Assembly (NCBI RefSeq): GCF_000160855.1
Contig: NZ_GG700753.1
Location: forward strand, 86,732-97,110
Direction: 5' to 3'
DNA: 10,379 nucleotides
From: Lactobacillus helveticus DSM 20075 = CGMCC 1.1877
Lineage (GTDB): Bacteria > Bacillota > Bacilli > Lactobacillales > Lactobacillaceae
In this document: positions 1 through 10,379 of the stretch, in pieces
Layout: each line of letters starts with the position of its first letter
How positions within the stretch are numbered: the first letter of the stretch is position 1
Position numbers and translations under genes: made by a program
Notes under the pieces: generated by a model
What the model was told of the DNA's origin: nothing
The model's database searches: none
Seen by the model: the letters and a program-made list of their open reading frames with translations, nothing else

Positions 1-2446
1 TGAATTTGCTTTCATCAAAATCTTTTGAACGAATCTGAATACTTAGTTTTTGATAGATTTTAAAAATGGAATTTTCACTAAATTCTTTTAAATTTTGCAT
101 TCCTATATTTAACTTATTAAGAGACTCTACTATATTTGCAACTGCTTCACAATCAGTCAAGCTTGATGAATGAAATACTATTGGGATAATCTTTACCAGA
201 TATCTCTTGTCATTTTCTATTACATCATGTACGGAATGCACTGAATTTGAGTTATTAATAATAGTTAATCTTAAATTTCTACTGTAATCAGCAATCAAAT
301 GTTTAATTGTCTTATGATTTGTTTTCTGATTAGCTAAACTTATTAAACCTTGCCAAATATTTTCTCTAAATTTAACATATTCTGGAGTTTTAAAAGCAGG
401 AAAATTCTGCATTACCAGAAAAGATTTTTCATTTGGAATCTCACTTGCAGTGTGAAAACTCAATTTAAGAAAATCGGGACTAATAGCCAGAAAAATTCTT
501 TGTGCTGATTTTTCAGGAAAATTTTTTATTAGTTCATTAATAAGTGCAATTTGTTGTGTAAATTTATAAAACCTAAAAGTATTAAATTGTATTGACCAGA
601 ATTCATCTACTGCCAATTTAAACTGAGATACTTTTTGTGGCACTTTAACAAGGTATTTATAAAAAAGTTCTGCTGCTAACTCGGGCTCGTCATATGATAT
701 ACCTCCTATTATTTTTAGTAAATAATCATATAGAAAGGTGTCATTTTCAATTTTATTGTCCATATCAACTTTTACTGGCTTAACTTTTTTTATTTTAGCC
801 AATACTAAGCTAACAGATGAATTAATATCATAGCTACAAAACATAGAAACAAATTGCAAATATAGAATTTCATCTTGATCATGGAAGAATTGAAATGACT
901 TCTTTACTTGTTGTGTAACATAGCTATTATTTTCTTCATTCTGAAAAAAGCCACGCAAAGTTTGTACATTATCACGAACAATGTTAGAAGCATATCCAAA
1001 ATAATTATTAATCATAAAATTTAGAGAAATTAATTGTCGATCAAGAAACACTGTTTTTAATACATAGCTACAAATAATTTGATCCTCAAAAAATACATAT
1101 CTATGATTTACAACATTTATTAATTCCATTTGGGTGAGTATGTCAATATTTTCTTTGAATTTTTCTTCTGAAATTTTGTATTTTTCTAATACCGGTTTAT
1201 AATAGCTAATTCTTTTAATATCAACATTCTTTAAAAAAGCAATTATGCCCAATGAAATAAGACTATGTAAATCTAAATGTTTTCTAACTAAAACATCACC
1301 TAATAATTGCTTAAATACTTGACTAAAGTCACTAATATCTGAAAGTCGATGTCTTTTATTAAAGACTTTTGCTGAGAGTAATGCGAATCTTAAATTGCCA
1401 TGTGATATCGCCCCAATTCTATCCAAGACTATATCATCTTTAATATTATATATTTTTTCAATACATTCTCGAACTTGTATTGCCGAAAGCTGTGTTAATT
1501 CCAATATATCAGCATTAACCCAATGCCCCAGTTCTTCATAAACATCATTCTTTGCATAATTTCGTACTGTCAGTATGATTTTTATATCTGATTTTTTTAT
1601 TTTTCTTTGAAAAGCTTGAAAGACTTTTTCTAAATCATTAATTCGATTTGCATCGTCAAATACTATGACTTTCAAAGAAGAATCATCAATATAGCTTTGA
1701 ATTTCGGAAATTAATGCTCTTGTATCGAAGACATTGTTCACAAAGAAAACTTGATCACCATATTTTTTAGTGTACTCGTATGCTAGTCTAGTTTTTCCAA
1801 CACCACTTGATCCAGTTAATATAACCACATTTTTGTTTTGTAGCTTATCATTTAACTGTTCAAGCTCACCTTCCCTATATGCAAAATAATTATATGTTGA
1901 TGCCCCAGTATATTGATCATTAAAGTCTTTTTCAAACTCTTTAGCAGTCATTAATTGTCGTGGCTTTAATACGAAACCTAAATATTCTTCTGCAAGGCTT
2001 CTATACTTATCTCTAATATCTGTTGCCAAATCATAATTTGAAACAAATTCAAAATCTATATTTTTCTTTTTCAGAAGGTTTTGTATTGCCTGTATATCCT
2101 TCGGTTCAATATCTGAAGTTGCCGAAAAATATTTTATCTTCTTAATTTTATCTTTATCGATACTACTATTATCAATTTTGGATAAATCATCTTTAACCTT
2201 TTGAAATATTTTCTTTTTCTGAGATGTATACTCCATTAGTATATACTTATCGTCTGAGGTAATTATATATGAATCAGGAGTACCTTTAGTAGTTTTATTT
2301 TTTCCATCTTCTGAACCTAGAGGTACTATGCTAGCAACAATACCTTTCGTTTTACATTCGATTCTTTCATATTCATCACAAAGTTTTTGAAAAGTAGCTG
2401 GATCAATTTCTTTTATTGCTTGTTCTATACGATTTAATTCAGTCAA
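1..2446 (-). CDS. STAND-type NTPase with N-terminal PD-(D/E)XK-like domain, candidate BREX-embedded defence protein (3' end beyond window)
   Basis: This is an open frame of 815 codons running off the window at position 1. It starts at TTG (2446-2444), six bases after AGGTGA, with an in-frame TGA inside the ribosome site, so no upstream start is possible. The first in-frame ATG comes only near codon 71. Residues 1-140 resemble a restriction-endonuclease fold: GTPDSYI (D58) followed by YILMEYTSQKK (E72, T74, Q76), with Thr where the classical Lys would stand. The NTPase follows: Walker A GSSGVGKT at 212-219, Walker B VIVFDD at 260-265, a sensor-like ILTVRNY with R295, and HGNLRFALLSA near 349-359. 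Residues about 395-465 look like a winged helix. The rest is helical, without a recognised repeat. STAND proteins are ATP-driven switches that couple sensing of a ligand to an effector; Avs antiphage proteins are examples. I infer an antiphage role from architecture and position behind pglX. The trigger and the nuclease activity are unproven. The gene is AT-rich and rich in ATA codons (10 of the first 18 Ile), unlike brxC (3 of 18), which suggests transfer. Confidence 0.85.
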   Translation of the reverse strand, partial: MTELNRIEQAIKEIDPATFQKLCDEYERIECKTKGIVASIVPLGSEDGKNKTTKGTPDSYIITSDDKYILMEYTSQKKKIFQKVKDDLSKIDNSSIDKDKIKKIKYFSATSDIEPKDIQAIQNLLKKKNIDFEFVSNYDLATDIRDKYRSLAEEYLGFVLKPRQLMTAKEFEKDFNDQYTGASTYNYFAYREGELEQLNDKLQNKNVVILTGSSGVGKTRLAYEYTKKYGDQVFFVNNVFDTRALISEIQSYIDDSSLKVIVFDDANRINDLEKVFQAFQRKIKKSDIKIILTVRNYAKNDVYEELGHWVNADILELTQLSAIQVRECIEKIYNIKDDIVLDRIGAISHGNLRFALLSAKVFNKRHRLSDISDFSQVFKQLLGDVLVRKHLDLHSLISLGIIAFLKNVDIKRISYYKPVLEKYKISEEKFKENIDILTQMELINVVNHRYVFFEDQIICSYVLKTVFLDRQLISLNFMINNYFGYASNIVRDNVQTLRGFFQNEENNSYVTQQVKKSFQFFHDQDEILYLQFVSMFCSYDINSSVSLVLAKIKKVKPVKVDMDNKIENDTFLYDYLLKIIGGISYDEPELAAELFYKYLVKVPQKVSQFKLAVDEFWSIQFNTFRFYKFTQQIALINELIKNFPEKSAQRIFLAISPDFLKLSFHTASEIPNEKSFLVMQNFPAFKTPEYVKFRENIWQGLISLANQKTNHKTIKHLIADYSRNLRLTIINNSNSVHSVHDVIENDKRYLVKIIPIVFHSSSLTDCEAVANIVESLNKLNIGMQNLKEFSENSIFKIYQKLSIQIRSKDFDESKF

Positions 2447-2488: not shown

Positions 2489-2520
2489 AAAAGCCCTATC
2501 TGCTTCACAGATAAGACTTT
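2485..2520 (-). terminator. Rho-independent terminator behind pglX
   Basis: On the minus strand AAAGTCTTATCTG pairs with CAGATAGGGCTTT around the five-base loop TGAAG. This is a 13-pair stem with two G-U pairs and no mismatch, at 2520-2490. The 3' arm runs into TTTTTGTT. It lies 14 bases after the pglX stop and would separate pglX transcription from the STAND gene. The stem lies wholly inside the 15-codon ORF that starts at 2523, so ribosomes on that ORF could melt it. Confidence 0.7.
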
Positions 2521-2534
2521 CATTTTAAATCTCC

Positions 2535-5500
2535 TTATAACTTCGATAACAGCTTCTCGCCTTGTTGCAATTTATCATGGTTGACAAGCACACCATCATC
2601 CAGATCAAGGTCAACCGGATTTTGTGACAAGTGATCTAAAATTTGATCATATTTCATGATCTCGTTCATCTGCTTATTAAGAGTAGCAATTGTCTTACGA
2701 TATTTACTCTTAGCACTAGCTGTTGTTTCTTGATCGAGCAAGTTCTGATCAACTTCAATTAGATCATTCATTGCAGGCTGAAGCTCATGCAGATAATGAC
2801 GCACCATTGGAAGCTGTTCAGTGTTGTAACGATGTAGATACATCAATGCCTTGAAGCCTTTATTTCTGCCTGAATTAAATTCCCAGTAAATTGGACGCTT
2901 CTGATAGATCTTAGCATGATCCTTATAGAAATCATTTAAGAAATAGGTTCTAATAATATCTTCTGCACTTGTACCTCGTTCAAACTTTTTAGGTTCTAAT
3001 GTTTGAGCAATGAAGTCCATGTTTTCTGTCAATGTTTCAGGGTCAAAGGTTTTAGTTAGGAATTCTTTCAAACGGACAATAATATCACGATCATCATCGA
3101 AATACTGACGATCAGTTAACAGAATAATGTTTTCTTTGTTAGGCTTGAATGTCGTATATTTTGAATCATCCCAGTCGCCACCAGCATAGACTAAACCATC
3201 TTGATCTAATGAATAACGACCAAAGACACAGCCGATAAAGTAAGACAAAAATGCTTTGATGTCGCGAACTTGATCTGCTTTACGAACGGATACTTCTTCG
3301 TTGGATTTTAATTGGTTGAAACGTGTGAGTGCTTCATTGGACCAGCTATTGTAGGCTTGGTGGAGGGATGCAGCATTTTGTGTTAGAAATGGACTCTTTT
3401 TAAAATCCCATGAAGTTTCAAAGGCATCCCAATCCAATTTACTTAATCTTATATTTAAATTTACTAATTTATCTATTGCTATATCATCATTATTTATATA
3501 AGGAAGTTCAGAAATTGTGCCCGGTTGTATATTCATAGTAGGATTAAGGATACTTACATAATAATTAGAAACTACACTTCCCAAATACCCTAAAATTCTA
3601 AAAATATTAGAATCGTTAGTGAATAATTTAGACCCTGCATTATCAAATAAATGTCCTACCATAGTATATCTTATTGAAAGATTTCCCGATGTCAAAGCGC
3701 TCCATGTAAGTCCACTTTTAAATATATAATCTAAATTATAATTATGTGACCTTACCTTTCCATTCTTATTTTTAAAATTTCGTATTTCGATTCCATCTTT
3801 TTCCCAATTTACAACTAAATAATTATTGCCAAACCATTTTCTGAATTCGCCGCCTTTATCATACGGGAACCATTTCTTAGCTGATTCTTCAGCTACTTGT
3901 CGGTTCTTATAATTAAAACCAATGTTATTTAAGTCTATTTCATACCAAAATCTTACAAATTTCTTATTATCGGAAGTTGCCATCCCTAATCTTGTTTGAG
4001 ATATGTCTCCTAATTTCTCTTTGCTGAAAAGCTTAAAAGATTTTTGACTTATCCAATAAGCTATAGGACTGCCAGGTATCTTATCAAAATTTGATTGATC
4101 AGTATAATACAAGTACTTAACTTTTGGATCACCAATAGCTTCCAAAACTTTTTGCTCTTGAACAATCATTCCACCCTTAAAGTTACTTAATCGTAAATAA
4201 GTACCAACTTTATCATCATCTGAATTTTTCAACACAAATGTATCAATAGGAACTGTAGCTTCTTCAAAAGCTGAATATTCCATCTGAATTAAACTATCGA
4301 TCTTAAAATTATTGATAATATCATGTCTTAATGGTTCATATGTCTTAATAAACATCCAAACCAAAGGTGTCATATAGCCTGCATAGCCGCCTTTAACTAA
4401 TTGATGTACATTATGGTAAATAAAAACAGAGAACAGATCCTTAGAGTAATTCTTATAACTATCTCTCAAATACTTCTTCAAGGTTTTATCGAACTTATTC
4501 ATATAAGGTGGATTAGTAACAACAGTTTCATATTTAGTAGCCATCACTTTAATTATCTTTAAGGTCTTAAGAATCTGCTGTTGTATTTTCTTATAACCAA
4601 AAACATCAAGACCACTTTCAAAATCTAATCCAGCAACTACTTCTTCAATAGAATCCAAATCAATGCTTTCGTCAATTTTGATAATTGATCCTAATTCTGT
4701 TGCGTCAGAAAAATCCTTAACTACTTTCTTTAAGTTGGCTCTAACCACTTTATCTGAAATAAAATTATAAAATTCATCAGATACATGAAGATCTTCAAAA
4801 TAATAAAGATTTGTAGTTGGATTCCTTCTTAAAAAGCGTCGATCATACTCTCTCCCCTTCATCATGATAGAAAAGTAAGCTAACTGAAATGCACGTTTAT
4901 CGATTTCTAATCCAAAAAGATTATTCTCAATAATTTTTTGAGCAGCATCCCTCATTGAATATCCTTGCTCAATATACATCTTCATGAAAAGATCAAATGC
5001 ATATACCAAGATATGACCTGATCCCATTGCATTATCCAGTAATTTATAGTCAATAATATCTTGATTTTCATTAATAGCTTTTATTTCATCTGGTAATAAA
5101 TACTTTAATTCATGTTTAACTGTGCTATCAGGGTGTCTTTCAAGATAGTATTTTCCCAATGAATTATCTATCATATATCTGACAATCCAATCTGGAGTAA
5201 ATAACTGTGTAGCCGCAGGAATCTCGTCTTTTTGAATAGCCTTACCGTTCATATTCACTACTTCTTCATGAGGTGCATTATTGTAATACTGGTAAAGCCA
5301 ACCAATAATCTGGACTTGTCCTTCCCTTTTGACATCAAAATATTCTTCTGGAATTTCATTAACCAATTCTTTAATGACGCCACGATCATAATGTGGAGTG
5401 AACAACAACTTCAAATAATTAGATGTCTCTTCAAACAATCCAGGAAGAATCTCACTTAATGCATCACTTTGCTTAATAAATAGCATGGTATACAAACTAT

Positions 5501-5996
5501 CCATTAATTCAGGAGTCTTTTCTGTTAATGCAGTAGTGATTAGTTCTTTTTCTTCAATACTATAGCCACCAAGATCATCACCAATTTCCATTGCTTCATT
5601 GATAATGTCAGGTTCATTTCTACCTTCTTCACTAGAAAGAACCCGCACTCTACTTGGCAAGTAATTATTAACTTCCATAAAACGAATAGCAATTATTCGG
5701 TTGAACCAAGTGTAAGCTACTTCTTCTACAAAATCCTTATATGCAGTCTTAGAGTCTTCTTGATATCCGTGGCGATTTAATTCTGCTACAATATCTTTGC
5801 GCCAGCCAATTTGTGCACCGGTTAATGCATTAGCTTCATTATCATCAACATAGTATTCCTTGTCTGGGGTTGAAATCGACAATTTGTCTTGAATCTCATT
5901 TTCATCAATGCCTAAAGTTGATAGTTTAACTTTAATAGCATTAATTAATTCTGTTCTTGCATTAATCGCATATTTTTTAATCTTATTCTTATCCAT
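2535..5996 (-). CDS. pglX: BREX-1 adenine-specific DNA methyltransferase PglX
   Basis: A full-length protein of 1153 residues, the usual size for BREX-1 PglX. It transfers a methyl group from S-adenosylmethionine to N6 of adenine in a short target site. In characterised BREX-1 systems this marks host DNA, and PglX is also needed to block phage. The AdoMet motif is DNAMGSGH at 321-328, preceded by QLFTPDWIVRYM at 264-275, a common feature of N6-adenine methylases. FGLEIDKRAF at 361-370 supplies the acidic motif II region. The catalytic NPPY is at 495-498. Residues about 600-870 should form the target-recognition domain, and the helical C-terminal part follows. The ATG is preceded by AAGGA nine bases upstream. 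It follows brxC but has its own terminator-promoter junction in front, so it can be transcribed separately. Codons about 640-849 differ sharply in composition from both sides (see the block entry). No frameshift or missing motif is seen. Confidence 0.97.
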   Translation of the reverse strand: MDKNKIKKYAINARTELINAIKVKLSTLGIDENEIQDKLSISTPDKEYYVDDNEANALTGAQIGWRKDIVAELNRHGYQEDSKTAYKDFVEEVAYTWFNRIIAIRFMEVNNYLPSRVRVLSSEEGRNEPDIINEAMEIGDDLGGYSIEEKELITTALTEKTPELMDSLYTMLFIKQSDALSEILPGLFEETSNYLKLLFTPHYDRGVIKELVNEIPEEYFDVKREGQVQIIGWLYQYYNNAPHEEVVNMNGKAIQKDEIPAATQLFTPDWIVRYMIDNSLGKYYLERHPDSTVKHELKYLLPDEIKAINENQDIIDYKLLDNAMGSGHILVYAFDLFMKMYIEQGYSMRDAAQKIIENNLFGLEIDKRAFQLAYFSIMMKGREYDRRFLRRNPTTNLYYFEDLHVSDEFYNFISDKVVRANLKKVVKDFSDATELGSIIKIDESIDLDSIEEVVAGLDFESGLDVFGYKKIQQQILKTLKIIKVMATKYETVVTNPPYMNKFDKTLKKYLRDSYKNYSKDLFSVFIYHNVHQLVKGGYAGYMTPLVWMFIKTYEPLRHDIINNFKIDSLIQMEYSAFEEATVPIDTFVLKNSDDDKVGTYLRLSNFKGGMIVQEQKVLEAIGDPKVKYLYYTDQSNFDKIPGSPIAYWISQKSFKLFSKEKLGDISQTRLGMATSDNKKFVRFWYEIDLNNIGFNYKNRQVAEESAKKWFPYDKGGEFRKWFGNNYLVVNWEKDGIEIRNFKNKNGKVRSHNYNLDYIFKSGLTWSALTSGNLSIRYTMVGHLFDNAGSKLFTNDSNIFRILGYLGSVVSNYYVSILNPTMNIQPGTISELPYINNDDIAIDKLVNLNIRLSKLDWDAFETSWDFKKSPFLTQNAASLHQAYNSWSNEALTRFNQLKSNEEVSVRKADQVRDIKAFLSYFIGCVFGRYSLDQDGLVYAGGDWDDSKYTTFKPNKENIILLTDRQYFDDDRDIIVRLKEFLTKTFDPETLTENMDFIAQTLEPKKFERGTSAEDIIRTYFLNDFYKDHAKIYQKRPIYWEFNSGRNKGFKALMYLHRYNTEQLPMVRHYLHELQPAMNDLIEVDQNLLDQETTASAKSKYRKTIATLNKQMNEIMKYDQILDHLSQNPVDLDLDDGVLVNHDKLQQGEKLLSKL
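3420..4100 (-). other. Compositionally foreign block in pglX matching the target-recognition domain
   Basis: Isoleucine codons change abruptly inside pglX. Codons 527-621 hold nine Ile, none ATA. Codons 640-849 hold 19 Ile, 13 of them ATA. Codons 913-1036 hold 11 Ile, none ATA. GC also falls from about 40 percent over 3241-3400 to 23-28 percent in several 60-base lines above 3420. The edges lie somewhere within 4136-4077 and 3452-3258; the coordinates given are approximate. The block falls where PglX proteins carry the specificity domain, so a swap by recombination is the simplest explanation. The reading frame is intact across both edges. Confidence 0.6.
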
Positions 5997-6082: not shown

Positions 6083-9000
6083 TTATTTGAAGTCTACATT
6101 TAAGATATCTGTATGTTGAAGTTCTTGTTTAATATTCTTTCTTAATTCAGCTAAATATTTATCAAGATCTTCTTCATTCGTGATCTTCCATGAATCTTCA
6201 TGAACTAGTTCGGTAATATCTTTAGATTTATTACTCTTAACTCTAATAATAGGTTTAGTTTTATTAGATACGGGAGCTACAGAAACAGGTTCTTTCTTGT
6301 CATTTTCTTCTGCTGCAGTTTTCTTTTCTCGAAGTTCTTGCTCTTTTCTAGCCTGTTCAGCTAATTCTGAACTAACTCGAGCAATATTTTCCTTCTGCTC
6401 ATTAGTTTGACCATCAATATTGTTTTTTAGTCCAACCAATGATACATAAGCATCTTCACTAGCGCTATTGCTGTATTCCTTAGCTTTTTGCAATAAAGTA
6501 TTGAAGACATTTTCCGCCATATCATTTAATTCGCGGTCTTTATCTTCCGGAAAATCTGATTCCGCAATTCTCTTCTTTATTACATCAAGACTTATTTGAA
6601 TTTGTGCCTCAATCTTATCGTAAGCCTCTTGAATAATATCATTGTATTTATCCGCAAACTGAGTGTTTAACTCTTTAAGCTTAGGAATTGTATTGTTGAA
6701 GTTATCATTTTCTAGGCAACCTTTAATCTTTTGAGCTATTCCGATTAAGTCTTGGTCTTCAATCATACTCTTAGCGTAATTGTAGCGATCAAGATAGCGA
6801 TGTGCTTTATTCCAAATTGCTTGTTGGCTACTTGTTTGCTCTACATCCCCGTAAAACTCAAGAATAGCTTTATCTTCGAGTTCTTCATGCCAATCTTCAT
6901 AATCATCTAAATGATCTGAAATAATCTGGAAGACACGGTCACTATCTTTAACGTTAACAATAGCATTTAGGTCATGAACACCTTCAGCTAATAATTTATG
7001 ACCAGGATAAGGCGTATCAAAATTATACTTTTTACGCATTAATGCATTTAAACAATCGACAAAACGTTTTGTTTTGTTTTTAATATCGTCTGCCATTTGC
7101 TCAGAAGTAGTATTTTCATCTACTGTTAAACGCATATCAAGGATATCATTGACAAAGTCTTTTGCATCCCTCTTTTGACGCATCGATATTTCTTTAACTG
7201 GCTTAATTGTCAACTTAGCGATATTATTCTTGCCGATTAAGTAACGTTGCGTTCCTTTGGGATCCTCTTGAGCACTAGTCAATGAAATCTGTTCATTGTT
7301 AAAATAGAACTTAACTTTACCGTTAACAAATGCTTTAGCTACCATCCAAGCAATATCAGTTGGTTTATAACCATAAGGGATTTCACCAAAACGTTTAATC
7401 ACATTAGCCAATGAAACATTATTCATGTTGCTAGCTTGGACGCTGATATAATTGATGATTTCTTTAATTGCCTGTTCATCATCACTGAACAAGTCATTTT
7501 TATTTTTACCCTTTAGGGTATCAAGGATATCTTGATCCGTCTTAACCGCAGTCAAATAATGTAAATTACGATAATTACTATCAATTATTTCCTTCTTGGC
7601 TTGCTCTAATCGACTTTCAAAATTACTACCCTTAGGTAAAACATCATCCAAGACATAAATATCAGCATCAATCAGATCATCCTTGATCATCTTCTGAGTG
7701 GCTTCTTCTACCTGCTTAGATTCAGCCTTTCTATTAAAGGCAATTTCTTGCTTTTTATCATCTGATCGACTTTCCGGTTTTTGCAAGTAAGCATTAATCT
7801 TTTCAATATGACGATAGTTTTCAATATAACGATCATCGTCTTTAAGAACGATAATGATGTTCTTACCATCACTAGCCTTTTGTTGGAAGTCAATTTCTCT
7901 ATAATCATCAGCAATCAATGTAGAGATAATCTGAATATTGAGATTATTGCTTAAACGGTTTAACCCCATTTCATCAATATATTCATTGAACTCAAAGATA
8001 TATTGATTCTTCATATGAGGGTAAGTATATTTTGCGTCAATCAAATTAGATGTTAATAAATATGAACCAATCTTTTGAGCTACCTTACGATCATCAACCT
8101 CAATTGCATTAATTGCTTCATTAACTTCTCGTTCTGAATCAGTCAAGAATTGGTAAGTATCTAGCTTCTTTTGAATATAATTCTGTCTCATTAAGACATT
8201 TAAAGCATCCTTAACTTCTGCAGTTAAAGCTTGTCTATCCTGATCAACACTATCTAGCAGTAAAGTAACTATATTTTCTAAAGTTGAAGGATAATTATCA
8301 ACATAACGTACCATGAAGAGAACGGCTAATACTTGAATATTAAAACAATAGTCTTCATTATTTTTGTTAACATACCTATCGGTTTGAGCTCGATCAAATA
8401 CCACTTGGTGATCATGACTTAAGAACTCTTTCATCCCGATAAAGAATGCAGAAAATGGTACTAACCTACCTAATTCATCATTCTCATATCTCTTGGTAGC
8501 TTCCTGGAAAGTTCCCAGCATTGAACGTTCACCATCAGACATGTGACTACCATTTGCACCATGTTGACGAACTGCAGTTAAGACCTCTTTTAATAAACTA
8601 AATTGATAAGGAATAAATGGATAGTTTTCGACAAATTCTTGAGCATTATCAAATTTTTGACGCTTGATTGCATCACTGAAATTAATCTTATTATTAATGC
8701 TATATTGCTCTTTAGAGTATATATCTGCCAATTGATCACTTACTAGTGGCTTTTTAGTCAGTAATCTTTTACGAATAACTTCATCTGCGTTGGCAGAACT
8801 CATATTGATCAAAGTATTAAAACGACCTTGAATTTTAGAGAAATCTCGTTCATATTTAGAAAAGTTGCTGGCGACTTCATCCATTTGTTGCTGAGAAGTA
8901 ACTACTACCCACGCACGACCTTGACATTGGACACCCAGTTGCTCAACGATTGTCTGTAAGTTAAGCATTCTACTATTATTGTCACCAATAAACTGACCAA

Positions 9001-9808
9001 CTTCATCAGCTAGGAATACAAAATGAGCATCATTACCTTTTTTATCAAGATAATTTTTAACCAACTTAGCAAAAGCTGTTGCATCAATGCTAAATTTTTT
9101 AGTTAACAGAGTTTGAACATAATTATTTGCATCTGTTTCATCCAATGCACCACAATTTACTAAAGCAGTCTTAATCTTAGTTGACATTAATGCATAATTT
9201 TTTCTAAGTTCAACCCAGCTAGAATGATCCGTTGTAGCTAAATCTGCAAAAGCTTGCTTAAAGGCCTCATATTTACCAATGCTATCAAGCCAGCGTTCCA
9301 TATCTGCTACTACTGCAATTGGTGAATATCCTAATTGCTCGTTAAAGACTTTAAGAAAGACATCTAGAATTGAATTATCATTATTTGCAGCGTTCGAATC
9401 AGCCTTTGAATCAATATTGAATAAAGCAACTTCGGTCGGTACACTAGTAGCTTTATTAATGGCATCAGCTAAATGATCATCATCGAATTTACCATCTTGT
9501 AAGAAGTAATCAATTGCTTGACGTCCTTTTACCGTATCATTCTCTAATAAATAGGAAAGGATTTTTAAGAAGTGAGATTTACCTGATCCAAAGAAACCGC
9601 TAATCCATGCTCCCATTTCATCGGTAGGATTATTAATACTCTTATCATAAGCATCAAAAAAACGAGTAAAGTTACGTTTTAATTCATCAGTTACAACATA
9701 TTCTTCGAGTTCTTGTTGTTTAATATCATCACTATCTTGACCAATTTTAATGACGCCACGAATATCTCTATTTATATCTTTTGCAAAAATATCTTTTATT
9801 TGTATCAT
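6083..9808 (-). CDS. brxC: BREX ATPase BrxC
   Basis: The product has 1241 residues, about the usual length for BrxC, the large P-loop ATPase of BREX-1 that works in the cytoplasm with BrxB, PglX and PglZ. Walker A is GFFGSGKS at 71-78, in the setting AWISGFFGSGKSHFLKIL typical of the family. Walker B is FVFLADE at 263-269, followed closely by the segment RAWVVVTSQQQMDEV that carries the sensor region. The long middle and C-terminal parts are mostly helical. Residues about 1137-1173 are strongly charged and probably coiled coil, followed by a Pro/Val/Lys linker and a small C-terminal unit. ATG (9808-9806) lies six bases after AAAGG, which overlaps the brxB stop, so brxB and brxC are very likely co-transcribed and translationally coupled. 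A terminator hairpin begins four bases after the stop. No defects are seen. Ile codon use is mostly ATT, which serves here as the local reference. Confidence 0.97.
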   Translation of the reverse strand: MIQIKDIFAKDINRDIRGVIKIGQDSDDIKQQELEEYVVTDELKRNFTRFFDAYDKSINNPTDEMGAWISGFFGSGKSHFLKILSYLLENDTVKGRQAIDYFLQDGKFDDDHLADAINKATSVPTEVALFNIDSKADSNAANNDNSILDVFLKVFNEQLGYSPIAVVADMERWLDSIGKYEAFKQAFADLATTDHSSWVELRKNYALMSTKIKTALVNCGALDETDANNYVQTLLTKKFSIDATAFAKLVKNYLDKKGNDAHFVFLADEVGQFIGDNNSRMLNLQTIVEQLGVQCQGRAWVVVTSQQQMDEVASNFSKYERDFSKIQGRFNTLINMSSANADEVIRKRLLTKKPLVSDQLADIYSKEQYSINNKINFSDAIKRQKFDNAQEFVENYPFIPYQFSLLKEVLTAVRQHGANGSHMSDGERSMLGTFQEATKRYENDELGRLVPFSAFFIGMKEFLSHDHQVVFDRAQTDRYVNKNNEDYCFNIQVLAVLFMVRYVDNYPSTLENIVTLLLDSVDQDRQALTAEVKDALNVLMRQNYIQKKLDTYQFLTDSEREVNEAINAIEVDDRKVAQKIGSYLLTSNLIDAKYTYPHMKNQYIFEFNEYIDEMGLNRLSNNLNIQIISTLIADDYREIDFQQKASDGKNIIIVLKDDDRYIENYRHIEKINAYLQKPESRSDDKKQEIAFNRKAESKQVEEATQKMIKDDLIDADIYVLDDVLPKGSNFESRLEQAKKEIIDSNYRNLHYLTAVKTDQDILDTLKGKNKNDLFSDDEQAIKEIINYISVQASNMNNVSLANVIKRFGEIPYGYKPTDIAWMVAKAFVNGKVKFYFNNEQISLTSAQEDPKGTQRYLIGKNNIAKLTIKPVKEISMRQKRDAKDFVNDILDMRLTVDENTTSEQMADDIKNKTKRFVDCLNALMRKKYNFDTPYPGHKLLAEGVHDLNAIVNVKDSDRVFQIISDHLDDYEDWHEELEDKAILEFYGDVEQTSSQQAIWNKAHRYLDRYNYAKSMIEDQDLIGIAQKIKGCLENDNFNNTIPKLKELNTQFADKYNDIIQEAYDKIEAQIQISLDVIKKRIAESDFPEDKDRELNDMAENVFNTLLQKAKEYSNSASEDAYVSLVGLKNNIDGQTNEQKENIARVSSELAEQARKEQELREKKTAAEENDKKEPVSVAPVSNKTKPIIRVKSNKSKDITELVHEDSWKITNEEDLDKYLAELRKNIKQELQHTDILNVDFK

Positions 9809-9817
9809 AATATGCCT

Positions 9818-10379
9818 TTAATCTATTCTGAATGCTCTATAGTAATTCTGATCTTTAATTTCACCAAATGCACGCAAGCTCATTTCATCGTAGTTTCCAG
9901 GATAGAACATAACAACTGGATTATTATCTAATACTTGATGCATAGTGTTTAAAATTTTATGAGCGCGAATAATTGGATAGACTTTGCCTAGTCCAGTCAG
10001 AAATACAATACATTGTCCATCCCTTTCTGGAATTCTTTCTTTAATATATCCAACAATCAAATTATTATTTTCACTCATTTCAAGAATGTTGTTTATCTGT
10101 TCGATTAAAACATCGAATCCTTGATTTTTCTCAATATCCTCTAAAATCGGAATAGGATCAGATCCAGTATATTTTTCTTGATCCTTGAGCAAATGCATCA
10201 TAATGTCATAAATATCAAATACTTTTATATTAACTCTTGCTGCACGGGGGCTTTCTTGAATTTTATCAATCTGCTTCCGCATATAAAGTTCCTGATCTGC
10301 TGGATAATCAAAAACATAATAGCCTACTTCATTTGATAAACCTTCGTTATGTCGAAACTTAGAATCGTCCATTTTTTCT
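9818..10379 (-). CDS. brxB: BREX protein BrxB (DUF1788 family), 5' end probably outside the window
   Basis: BrxB is a small core BREX-1 protein without enzymatic motifs, thought to help assemble the complex. Counting from the ATG at 10372, family features include NEVGYYVFDYPADQELYMRK at 14-33, CIVFLTGLGKVYPIIRAHKI at 121-140, and the closing run FYPGNYDEMSLRAFG and NYYRAFRID, all characteristic of DUF1788. The ATG is doubtful as the start. The frame stays open to the window edge (codons for Glu-Lys precede it), the seven bases in front hold no ribosome site, and BrxB proteins usually carry some tens of residues before the GNEVGYY-like motif. I therefore treat the gene as 5'-partial. The stop TAA (9820-9818) overlaps the ribosome site of brxC, nine bases separating the two genes. 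brxA would be expected just upstream. Confidence 0.93.
   Translation of the reverse strand, partial: EKMDDSKFRHNEGLSNEVGYYVFDYPADQELYMRKQIDKIQESPRAARVNIKVFDIYDIMMHLLKDQEKYTGSDPIPILEDIEKNQGFDVLIEQINNILEMSENNNLIVGYIKERIPERDGQCIVFLTGLGKVYPIIRAHKILNTMHQVLDNNPVVMFYPGNYDEMSLRAFGEIKDQNYYRAFRID

Follow-up and report, generated by a model that had tools for sequence, protein, structure and literature searches.

A STAND gene behind pglX in a BREX-1 locus of Lactobacillus helveticus as a candidate Avs-like antiphage sensor-effector

The 10,379-nucleotide stretch of Lactobacillus helveticus DSM 20075 = CGMCC 1.1877 analyzed here (the window; contig NZ_GG700753.1, positions 86,732 to 97,110) carries part of a BREX-1 locus, and behind its methyltransferase gene pglX begins a STAND gene whose 5' 815 codons occupy 2..2446 of the minus strand, with a TTG start at 2446 and the 3' end beyond the window edge. 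This gene is best explained, with a probability of about 0.6, as an autonomous, single-protein, Avs-like antiphage sensor-effector that is cargo in an accessory slot of BREX-1. By computation, the protein has a three-domain anatomy, an Avs-like predicted fold and a conserved, non-canonical N-terminal site; the gene follows pglX in the window and occupies the slot between pglX and pglZ in three relatives, and members of the family occur elsewhere without BREX nearby. The protein has the look of a bacterial counterpart to the immune sensors of animals and plants. It is proposed that the long helical C-terminal array would bind a phage component and that this binding would release the STAND NTPase, which would oligomerize with ATP; the N-terminal restriction-endonuclease-like domains would be brought together and might attack or clamp DNA as their presumed target, and the infection would be stopped, probably at the expense of the cell. 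The gene is probably expressed from its own promoter and would work with or without BREX.

The frame next to pglX is real. An earlier note, made from the letters of the window, had described a frame of at least 815 codons with GSSGVGKT, VIVFDD, GTPD and EYTSQ motifs and a sensor arginine, co-oriented with BREX and adjoining pglX; all of these were located in 2446..2 of the minus strand, and PglX, BrxC and BrxB are encoded on the same strand. The TTG start is preceded by a GAGGTG-type ribosome site, as judged by eye, and coincides with the start of full-length relatives in an alignment of 28 relatives. The closest relative, P0002, has 1242 amino acids and 99% identity; further relatives by name come from Lactobacillus helveticus (92%), L. 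crispatus (81%) and L. paragasseri (41% identity). The STAND identity given in that note is borne out by Pfam nSTAND3 (PF20720), which matches the protein with 45.8 bits, above the curated cut-off of 27.2. The matched NTPase region (residues 188-470; 1037..1885) contains the Walker A motif GSSGVGKT (residues 212-219; 1790..1813), the Walker B motif VIVFDD (residues 260-265; 1652..1669) and TVRNYA with the sensor arginine R295 (residues 293-298; 1553..1570), and it is followed by the beginning of the helical C-terminal array seen in the AlphaFold2 (AF2) models (residues 480-815; 2..1009), all on the minus strand. Twelve positions, namely K83, D87, G215, G217, K218, D264, D265, R295, Y297, I344, N351 and R353, are invariant across a 109-row alignment, and both this alignment and that of the 28 relatives show, fragments aside, a single colinear architecture of about 1240 amino acids.

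A scan of species genomes with the single window sequence found no relative, and relatives were found when an alignment was used; the alignment-profile scan yielded 205 relatives, and 80 loci were retained as a family sample that spans, by record titles, Bacillota, Cyanobacteria, Bacteroidota, Campylobacterota and others. When the N-terminal domain of the relative P0021 was used as a query, in a search that could find only proteins of 0.55-1.75 times the query length, 404 proteins matched; among the 120 of these listed, three lacked a precomputed Pfam label and the rest, read by eye, carried nSTAND3 or nSTAND_NTPase5. Because the listed matches nearly all carry STAND labels, the architecture of about 1245 amino acids appears to be fixed. 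The N-terminal domain of the window protein alone, used in the same way, matched only three proteins of 100-113 amino acids. Between P0002 and two members of its sister clade (P0007 and P0009), identity is 55-59% in the N-terminal domain, 43-45% in the STAND part and 25-37% in the rest, and the C-terminal part of the protein diverges fast. In a comparison of the window with three L. johnsonii-type loci, identity is 78% for BrxB, 63% for BrxC and 57-69% for PglX but only 41% for the STAND protein; the sensor therefore changes faster than the adjoining BREX core. No near copy of the gene was found on plasmids, where a protein search returned only distant Leptospira relatives in 13 plasmid records (H1-H13) at about 25% identity, and no relative of the protein was found in phage records. 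In IMG/VR there were four loci, two of which, on viral-classed contigs (L254 and L255), are distant relatives with 24-26% identity over 626 and 732 residues; the other two have little beyond the P-loop stretch.

The STAND protein is structurally similar to solved Avs proteins, and Avs4 is the best structural match of both its AF2 models. The plan of an N-terminal effector, a STAND NTPase and a long C-terminal repeat array is shared with the antiphage STAND proteins Avs4, Avs3 and Avs5 (AVAST), the effector role being presumed in the present protein. Avs effectors are often swapped, whereas the architecture of this family appears to be fixed at about 1245 amino acids and its N-terminal site is non-canonical. 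A profile search of PDB detected no sequence relation to Avs: of its 51 matches (E up to 1, lowest 0.0013), none bears an Avs name and almost all fall on the P-loop. It has been reported that Avs proteins have this architecture and that Avs5 also carries nSTAND3 (PMC12931631). Foldseek against viral predicted structures returned mostly AAA and clamp-loader proteins; the top match was an uncharacterized protein of a Sylvanvirus, and in third place came a siphovirus-contig protein whose name refers to an NLR (E 4.7e-6). The general plan of the protein is a known one, the family is one for which no name was found, and its effector site is unusual and strictly conserved.

The N-terminal domain (residues 1-160; 1967..2446, minus strand) is predicted to have an Mrr-like restriction-endonuclease fold. 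Its AF2 topology runs helices, strand, strand, strand, helix, strand, helix, strand, as in restriction endonucleases, and includes a predicted alpha-beta-beta-beta-alpha-beta core; the domain was read as part of a larger model, in which residues 41-60 are its least sure stretch (predicted local distance difference test score 60-69). In an hhalign comparison with 23 Mrr_cat sequences, the domain aligned over its length with a global score of 28.1, while the best of 40 column-shuffled controls reached 8.7, the STAND part 4.4 and the helical part 5.7; the local score was 32.9, against 16.2, 17.7 and 12.2, respectively. In this alignment, D58 of the GTPD motif (residues 55-58; 2273..2284, minus strand) falls on the catalytic Asp of Mrr and is present in 107 of 107 ungapped sequences; E72-Y73-T74 of the EYTSQ motif (residues 72-76; 2219..2233, minus strand) falls on Q-x-K, where the (D/E/Q)xK motif would lie, T74 taking the position of the Lys. 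K83 and D87 (2186..2200, minus strand), each present in 109 of 109 sequences, lie in the helix that follows strand 3. No other part of the STAND protein is as well conserved as this domain, which for this reason appears to matter, since a decaying domain would look otherwise; the conserved D58, K83 and D87 suggest, from sequence conservation, that some chemistry takes place in it. In Cfr10I and NgoMIV, an acidic residue has moved to this helix at a similar spacing, which is a lead and not a test.

Several results weigh against the reading of the gene as an antiphage sensor-effector. PADLOC, which includes Avs models, gave no Avs-named match to the protein at E<=1, only weak matches nearly all at the P-loop (VakA, PDC-S01, mad8 and others). 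By eye, among the matches listed, 4 of 50 genomes have an N6-methyltransferase no more than 10 kb from the STAND gene (1.13 expected, P 0.028), or 3 (1.06 expected, P 0.09) when the BREX genome is left out; the proximity is only weakly above chance, and the tie to modification systems is therefore weak as a family trait. A first hhalign comparison with seven Mrr-type sequences gave a probability of 6% in global and 51% in local mode, and the program's own probability for the Mrr_cat match was moderate (49-67%). At position 72, 46 of the 109 sequences have E, 46 have M and 10 have A; at position 74, 80 have T, 29 have G and none has K; the canonical D...(D/E/Q)xK of Mrr-like PD-(D/E)XK nucleases is thus incomplete, D58 being kept and the Lys absent. 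Since the Lys is missing from 109 of 109 sequences and Glu is found in only 46, the effector may not cut DNA. The earlier proposal of a STAND sensor-effector with an N-terminal fold of nuclease type is supported, while its designation as a nuclease has to be qualified.

The same site is consistent with the domain being a catalytically dead restriction-endonuclease fold that serves for DNA binding or docking, the damage being done by oligomerization or by a partner nuclease such as PDC-S19. Pfam holds a precedent in its family of 'NACHT-associated inactive Restriction Endonuclease', and a PDC-S19-related gene follows in all three L. johnsonii-type loci. This alternative nevertheless appears unlikely: the domain is the most strongly kept part of the protein, with D58, K83 and D87 retained in every sequence that covers them, and in two of the three loci the PDC-S19 gene is fragmented while the STAND frame is open. 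An NA-iREase1-type identity of the domain was rejected, there being no profile match to the four such sequences fetched; Pfam, run on the domain alone for four members, gave no family above cut-off.

The preferred reading as an autonomous sensor-effector is consistent with the way in which the gene is set off from BREX. A terminator-like hairpin with a U run lies between pglX and the STAND gene (2489..2521, minus strand; 15 pairs, z -2.84), and 2 of 200 shuffles fold equally well; terminator-like matches in the window are in slight excess (5 vs 3.0 in shuffles, standard deviation 1.8), and this one has by far the longest stem. The hairpin closes the pglX unit, and the STAND gene therefore looks autonomous. 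A scan of the window for promoter-like sequences gave no excess (54 matches vs 56.2 in shuffles). By eye, locus L141 has a hairpin of different sequence and the same design after pglX, and empty slots such as those of L143 and L190 also show one; the hairpin sequence of the window was not found in IMG/VR. In these Lactobacillaceae, pglZ seems to form a transcription unit apart from that of brxA to pglX, and the pglX-pglZ gap would be a natural landing place because it lies between the two units, which is a possible reason why the slot takes cargo in this family of bacteria.

The contents of this gap were surveyed in Lactobacillaceae. A PglZ match was found in 54 of 397 genomes and 51 loci were examined, with G071 and G193 (contig end, fragment) and G310 (broken) left out; seven of the 51 lacked pglX in hand, and the counts rest on 44 loci. 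The gap held an inverted partial pglX in 33, nothing in eight and the STAND gene in three (L001, L141 and L142); the window shows the pglX side only. The inverted partial pglX (loci among L145-L184) nearly always stands beside an open reading frame of about 310-394 amino acids, one of which was checked and is an integrase-type recombinase, as expected for phase-variable methylase specificity. The earlier note had not recognized the gene as a named BREX component and had recommended surveying BREX loci for homologues between pglX and pglZ; with three occurrences in 44 gaps, the first point is supported, the gene not being a core component. The position of the gene, adjoining pglX in the same orientation in all four clade loci (window, L001, L141 and L142), would agree with an accessory subunit that serves this BREX subtype specifically and is required for methylation or restriction, but this is extremely improbable, as 41 of 44 gaps lack it and BREX lies beside only one of the 80 sampled family loci.

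Beyond this clade, the family is not tied to BREX. Up to 10 kb on each side, less on short contigs, was searched for relatives of the BrxB, BrxC and PglX of the window, and one of the 80 family loci (L001, L. johnsonii) had them; very diverged BREX types could escape this search. PglZ is above cut-off in 10 of 50 family genomes, and by eye the genome of L001 is the only one in which it is no further than 10 kb from the STAND gene. The earlier description of the gene as BREX-associated thus holds for its own Lactobacillus clade, where all four loci of known context are BREX-1, and is not supported for the family, 79 of the 80 sampled loci being without a BREX match in these flanks; a strict tie to restriction-modification (R-M) or BREX was rejected as a family trait. 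On the family tree, the BREX-slot label changes three times with rows without known context scored as 'no group', which is compatible with one or more acquisitions.

These contexts bear on the possibility that the STAND protein is a guard that senses failure or inhibition of BREX (for instance, by a DNA-mimic inhibitor bound to PglX) and kills the cell, as PARIS and PrrC do for other systems. Salmonella PARIS is reportedly placed exactly between pglX and pglZ. The sharing of this slot with PARIS (PMC11341690) would suit a guard, as would the BREX-1 context of every clade locus whose context is known; in addition, relatives lie directly behind hsdR (L017 and L076) or overlap hsdS (L030) of type I R-M. 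The guard is held to be rather unlikely in the face of the 79 of 80 loci in which no BREX was found nearby, of PglZ within 10 kb in one of 50 genomes, of a methyltransferase proximity weakly above chance, and of the hairpin that separates the gene from pglX; moreover, Ocr did not activate PARIS in the Salmonella study (PMC11341690). A bolder and decidedly improbable version is that of a widespread STAND family with a rearranged nuclease site (PD plus K83/D87), which would guard BREX and type I R-M and fire upon inhibition of the methylase arm; if true, one protein would join NLR-like sensing to the surveillance of DNA-modification defences.

Outside BREX, the surroundings of the family are diverse. 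In the scan of the 397 Lactobacillaceae genomes, 64 genomes matched the profile; 10 of these are real (eight with an open frame, two broken) and 54 are short stretches, nearly all at the P-loop. Three of the eight open copies lie between pglX and pglZ. Of the remaining five, all distant family members where they adjoin rlmH, L193-L195 stand directly behind that gene (its Pfam class being verified in one of them, with which the other two cluster), one follows a gene read as rpsI and one is beside genes read as resolvases. A broken copy, L196, also stands behind rlmH, with one reversed gene between them; rlmH is the integration site of the staphylococcal cassette chromosome. A neighbour survey yielded 135 operon-like neighbours in 79 loci, of which 97 were analyzed after short or repeated ones had been dropped by hand; the commonest Pfam labels were RhuM (9), uracil-5-methyltransferase of RlmD type (6), HsdS (4), ResIII (4) and Fic (4), and the commonest PADLOC labels were the candidate families PDC-S05 (10) and PDC-S23 (9). 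The several relatives next to housekeeping genes (rlmH, rpsI, RlmD-type), would fit a STAND regulator, selfish or housekeeping, that has inserted at hotspots and has no part in defence; this is very unlikely, given the patchy presence of the gene (in 10 of the 397 Lactobacillaceae genomes, two of these copies being broken), its fast C-terminal divergence and its Avs-like predicted fold.

As cargo of BREX, the STAND gene has parallels among known accessory defences. PARIS (ariA-ariB) is embedded in a BREX-1 island in Salmonella and is likewise an accessory defence within such a locus (Went et al. 2024, PMC11341690). It consists of two genes, for an OLD-type ABC ATPase and a TOPRIM nuclease (PMC12839542), whereas the STAND gene encodes one protein with a predicted Mrr-like fold and has neither of these parts. 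BxaP, likewise one uncommon gene lodged in BREX and R-M loci, protects by itself, as the STAND gene would; BxaP was found in type 3 BREX and compared with HEPN-containing toxins, and is a different kind of protein (PMC10799925). BrxU and the other back-up nucleases of BREX, as listed by Rakesh and Krishnan 2026, are also accessory effectors inside BREX loci (PMC11341690, PMC12839542); in the main text of the latter, AVAST, Avs, NACHT, nSTAND and Mrr are absent as whole words. By analogy with PARIS and BxaP, a back-up or BREX-guarding role for the gene is possible. In the open-licence PMC literature on BREX with STAND or Avs insertions and on gasseri/johnsonii BREX, no description of the gene was recognized. 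Went et al. reported some 9,000 genomes in which pglZ and pglX occur together; in about 7,000 of these other genes separate the two, and about 5,000 of the gaps so filled contain no known defence system (PMC11341690). An Avs-like STAND sensor would be one concrete content for such gaps, and the family lends itself to testing, its architecture being apparently fixed and its effector site unusual and strictly conserved.

The remainder of the window is occupied by pglX (2535..5996; NF033452, 1232.5 bits), brxC (6083..9808; NF033441, 1024.6 bits) and brxB (9818..10372; PF08747, 122.8 bits), all on the minus strand, along which the order is brxB, brxC, pglX and the STAND gene; pglZ, brxA and brxL are out of view because the window stops within the STAND gene and at the start of brxB. 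The BrxL ATPase domain (PF13337) was not found in the genomes G001, G198, G242 and G180 (those of L001, L141, L142 and L143), in which other BREX-1 genes are present. In L001, L141 and L142, the STAND gene is followed by a gene with DUF3644 and EC042_2821, which matches the PADLOC candidate PDC-S19 in L141; it is nearly whole in L141 (5721-6563, minus strand) and in pieces in L001 (14529-14771) and L142 (5692-6465, minus strand). The gap between pglX and the STAND gene, short in L141, is enlarged in L. johnsonii (L001:9795-9945), and by eye this stretch has inverted ends (gtgtccgggaaaaaa / ttttttcccagacac) and looks like a small insertion within the hairpin region.
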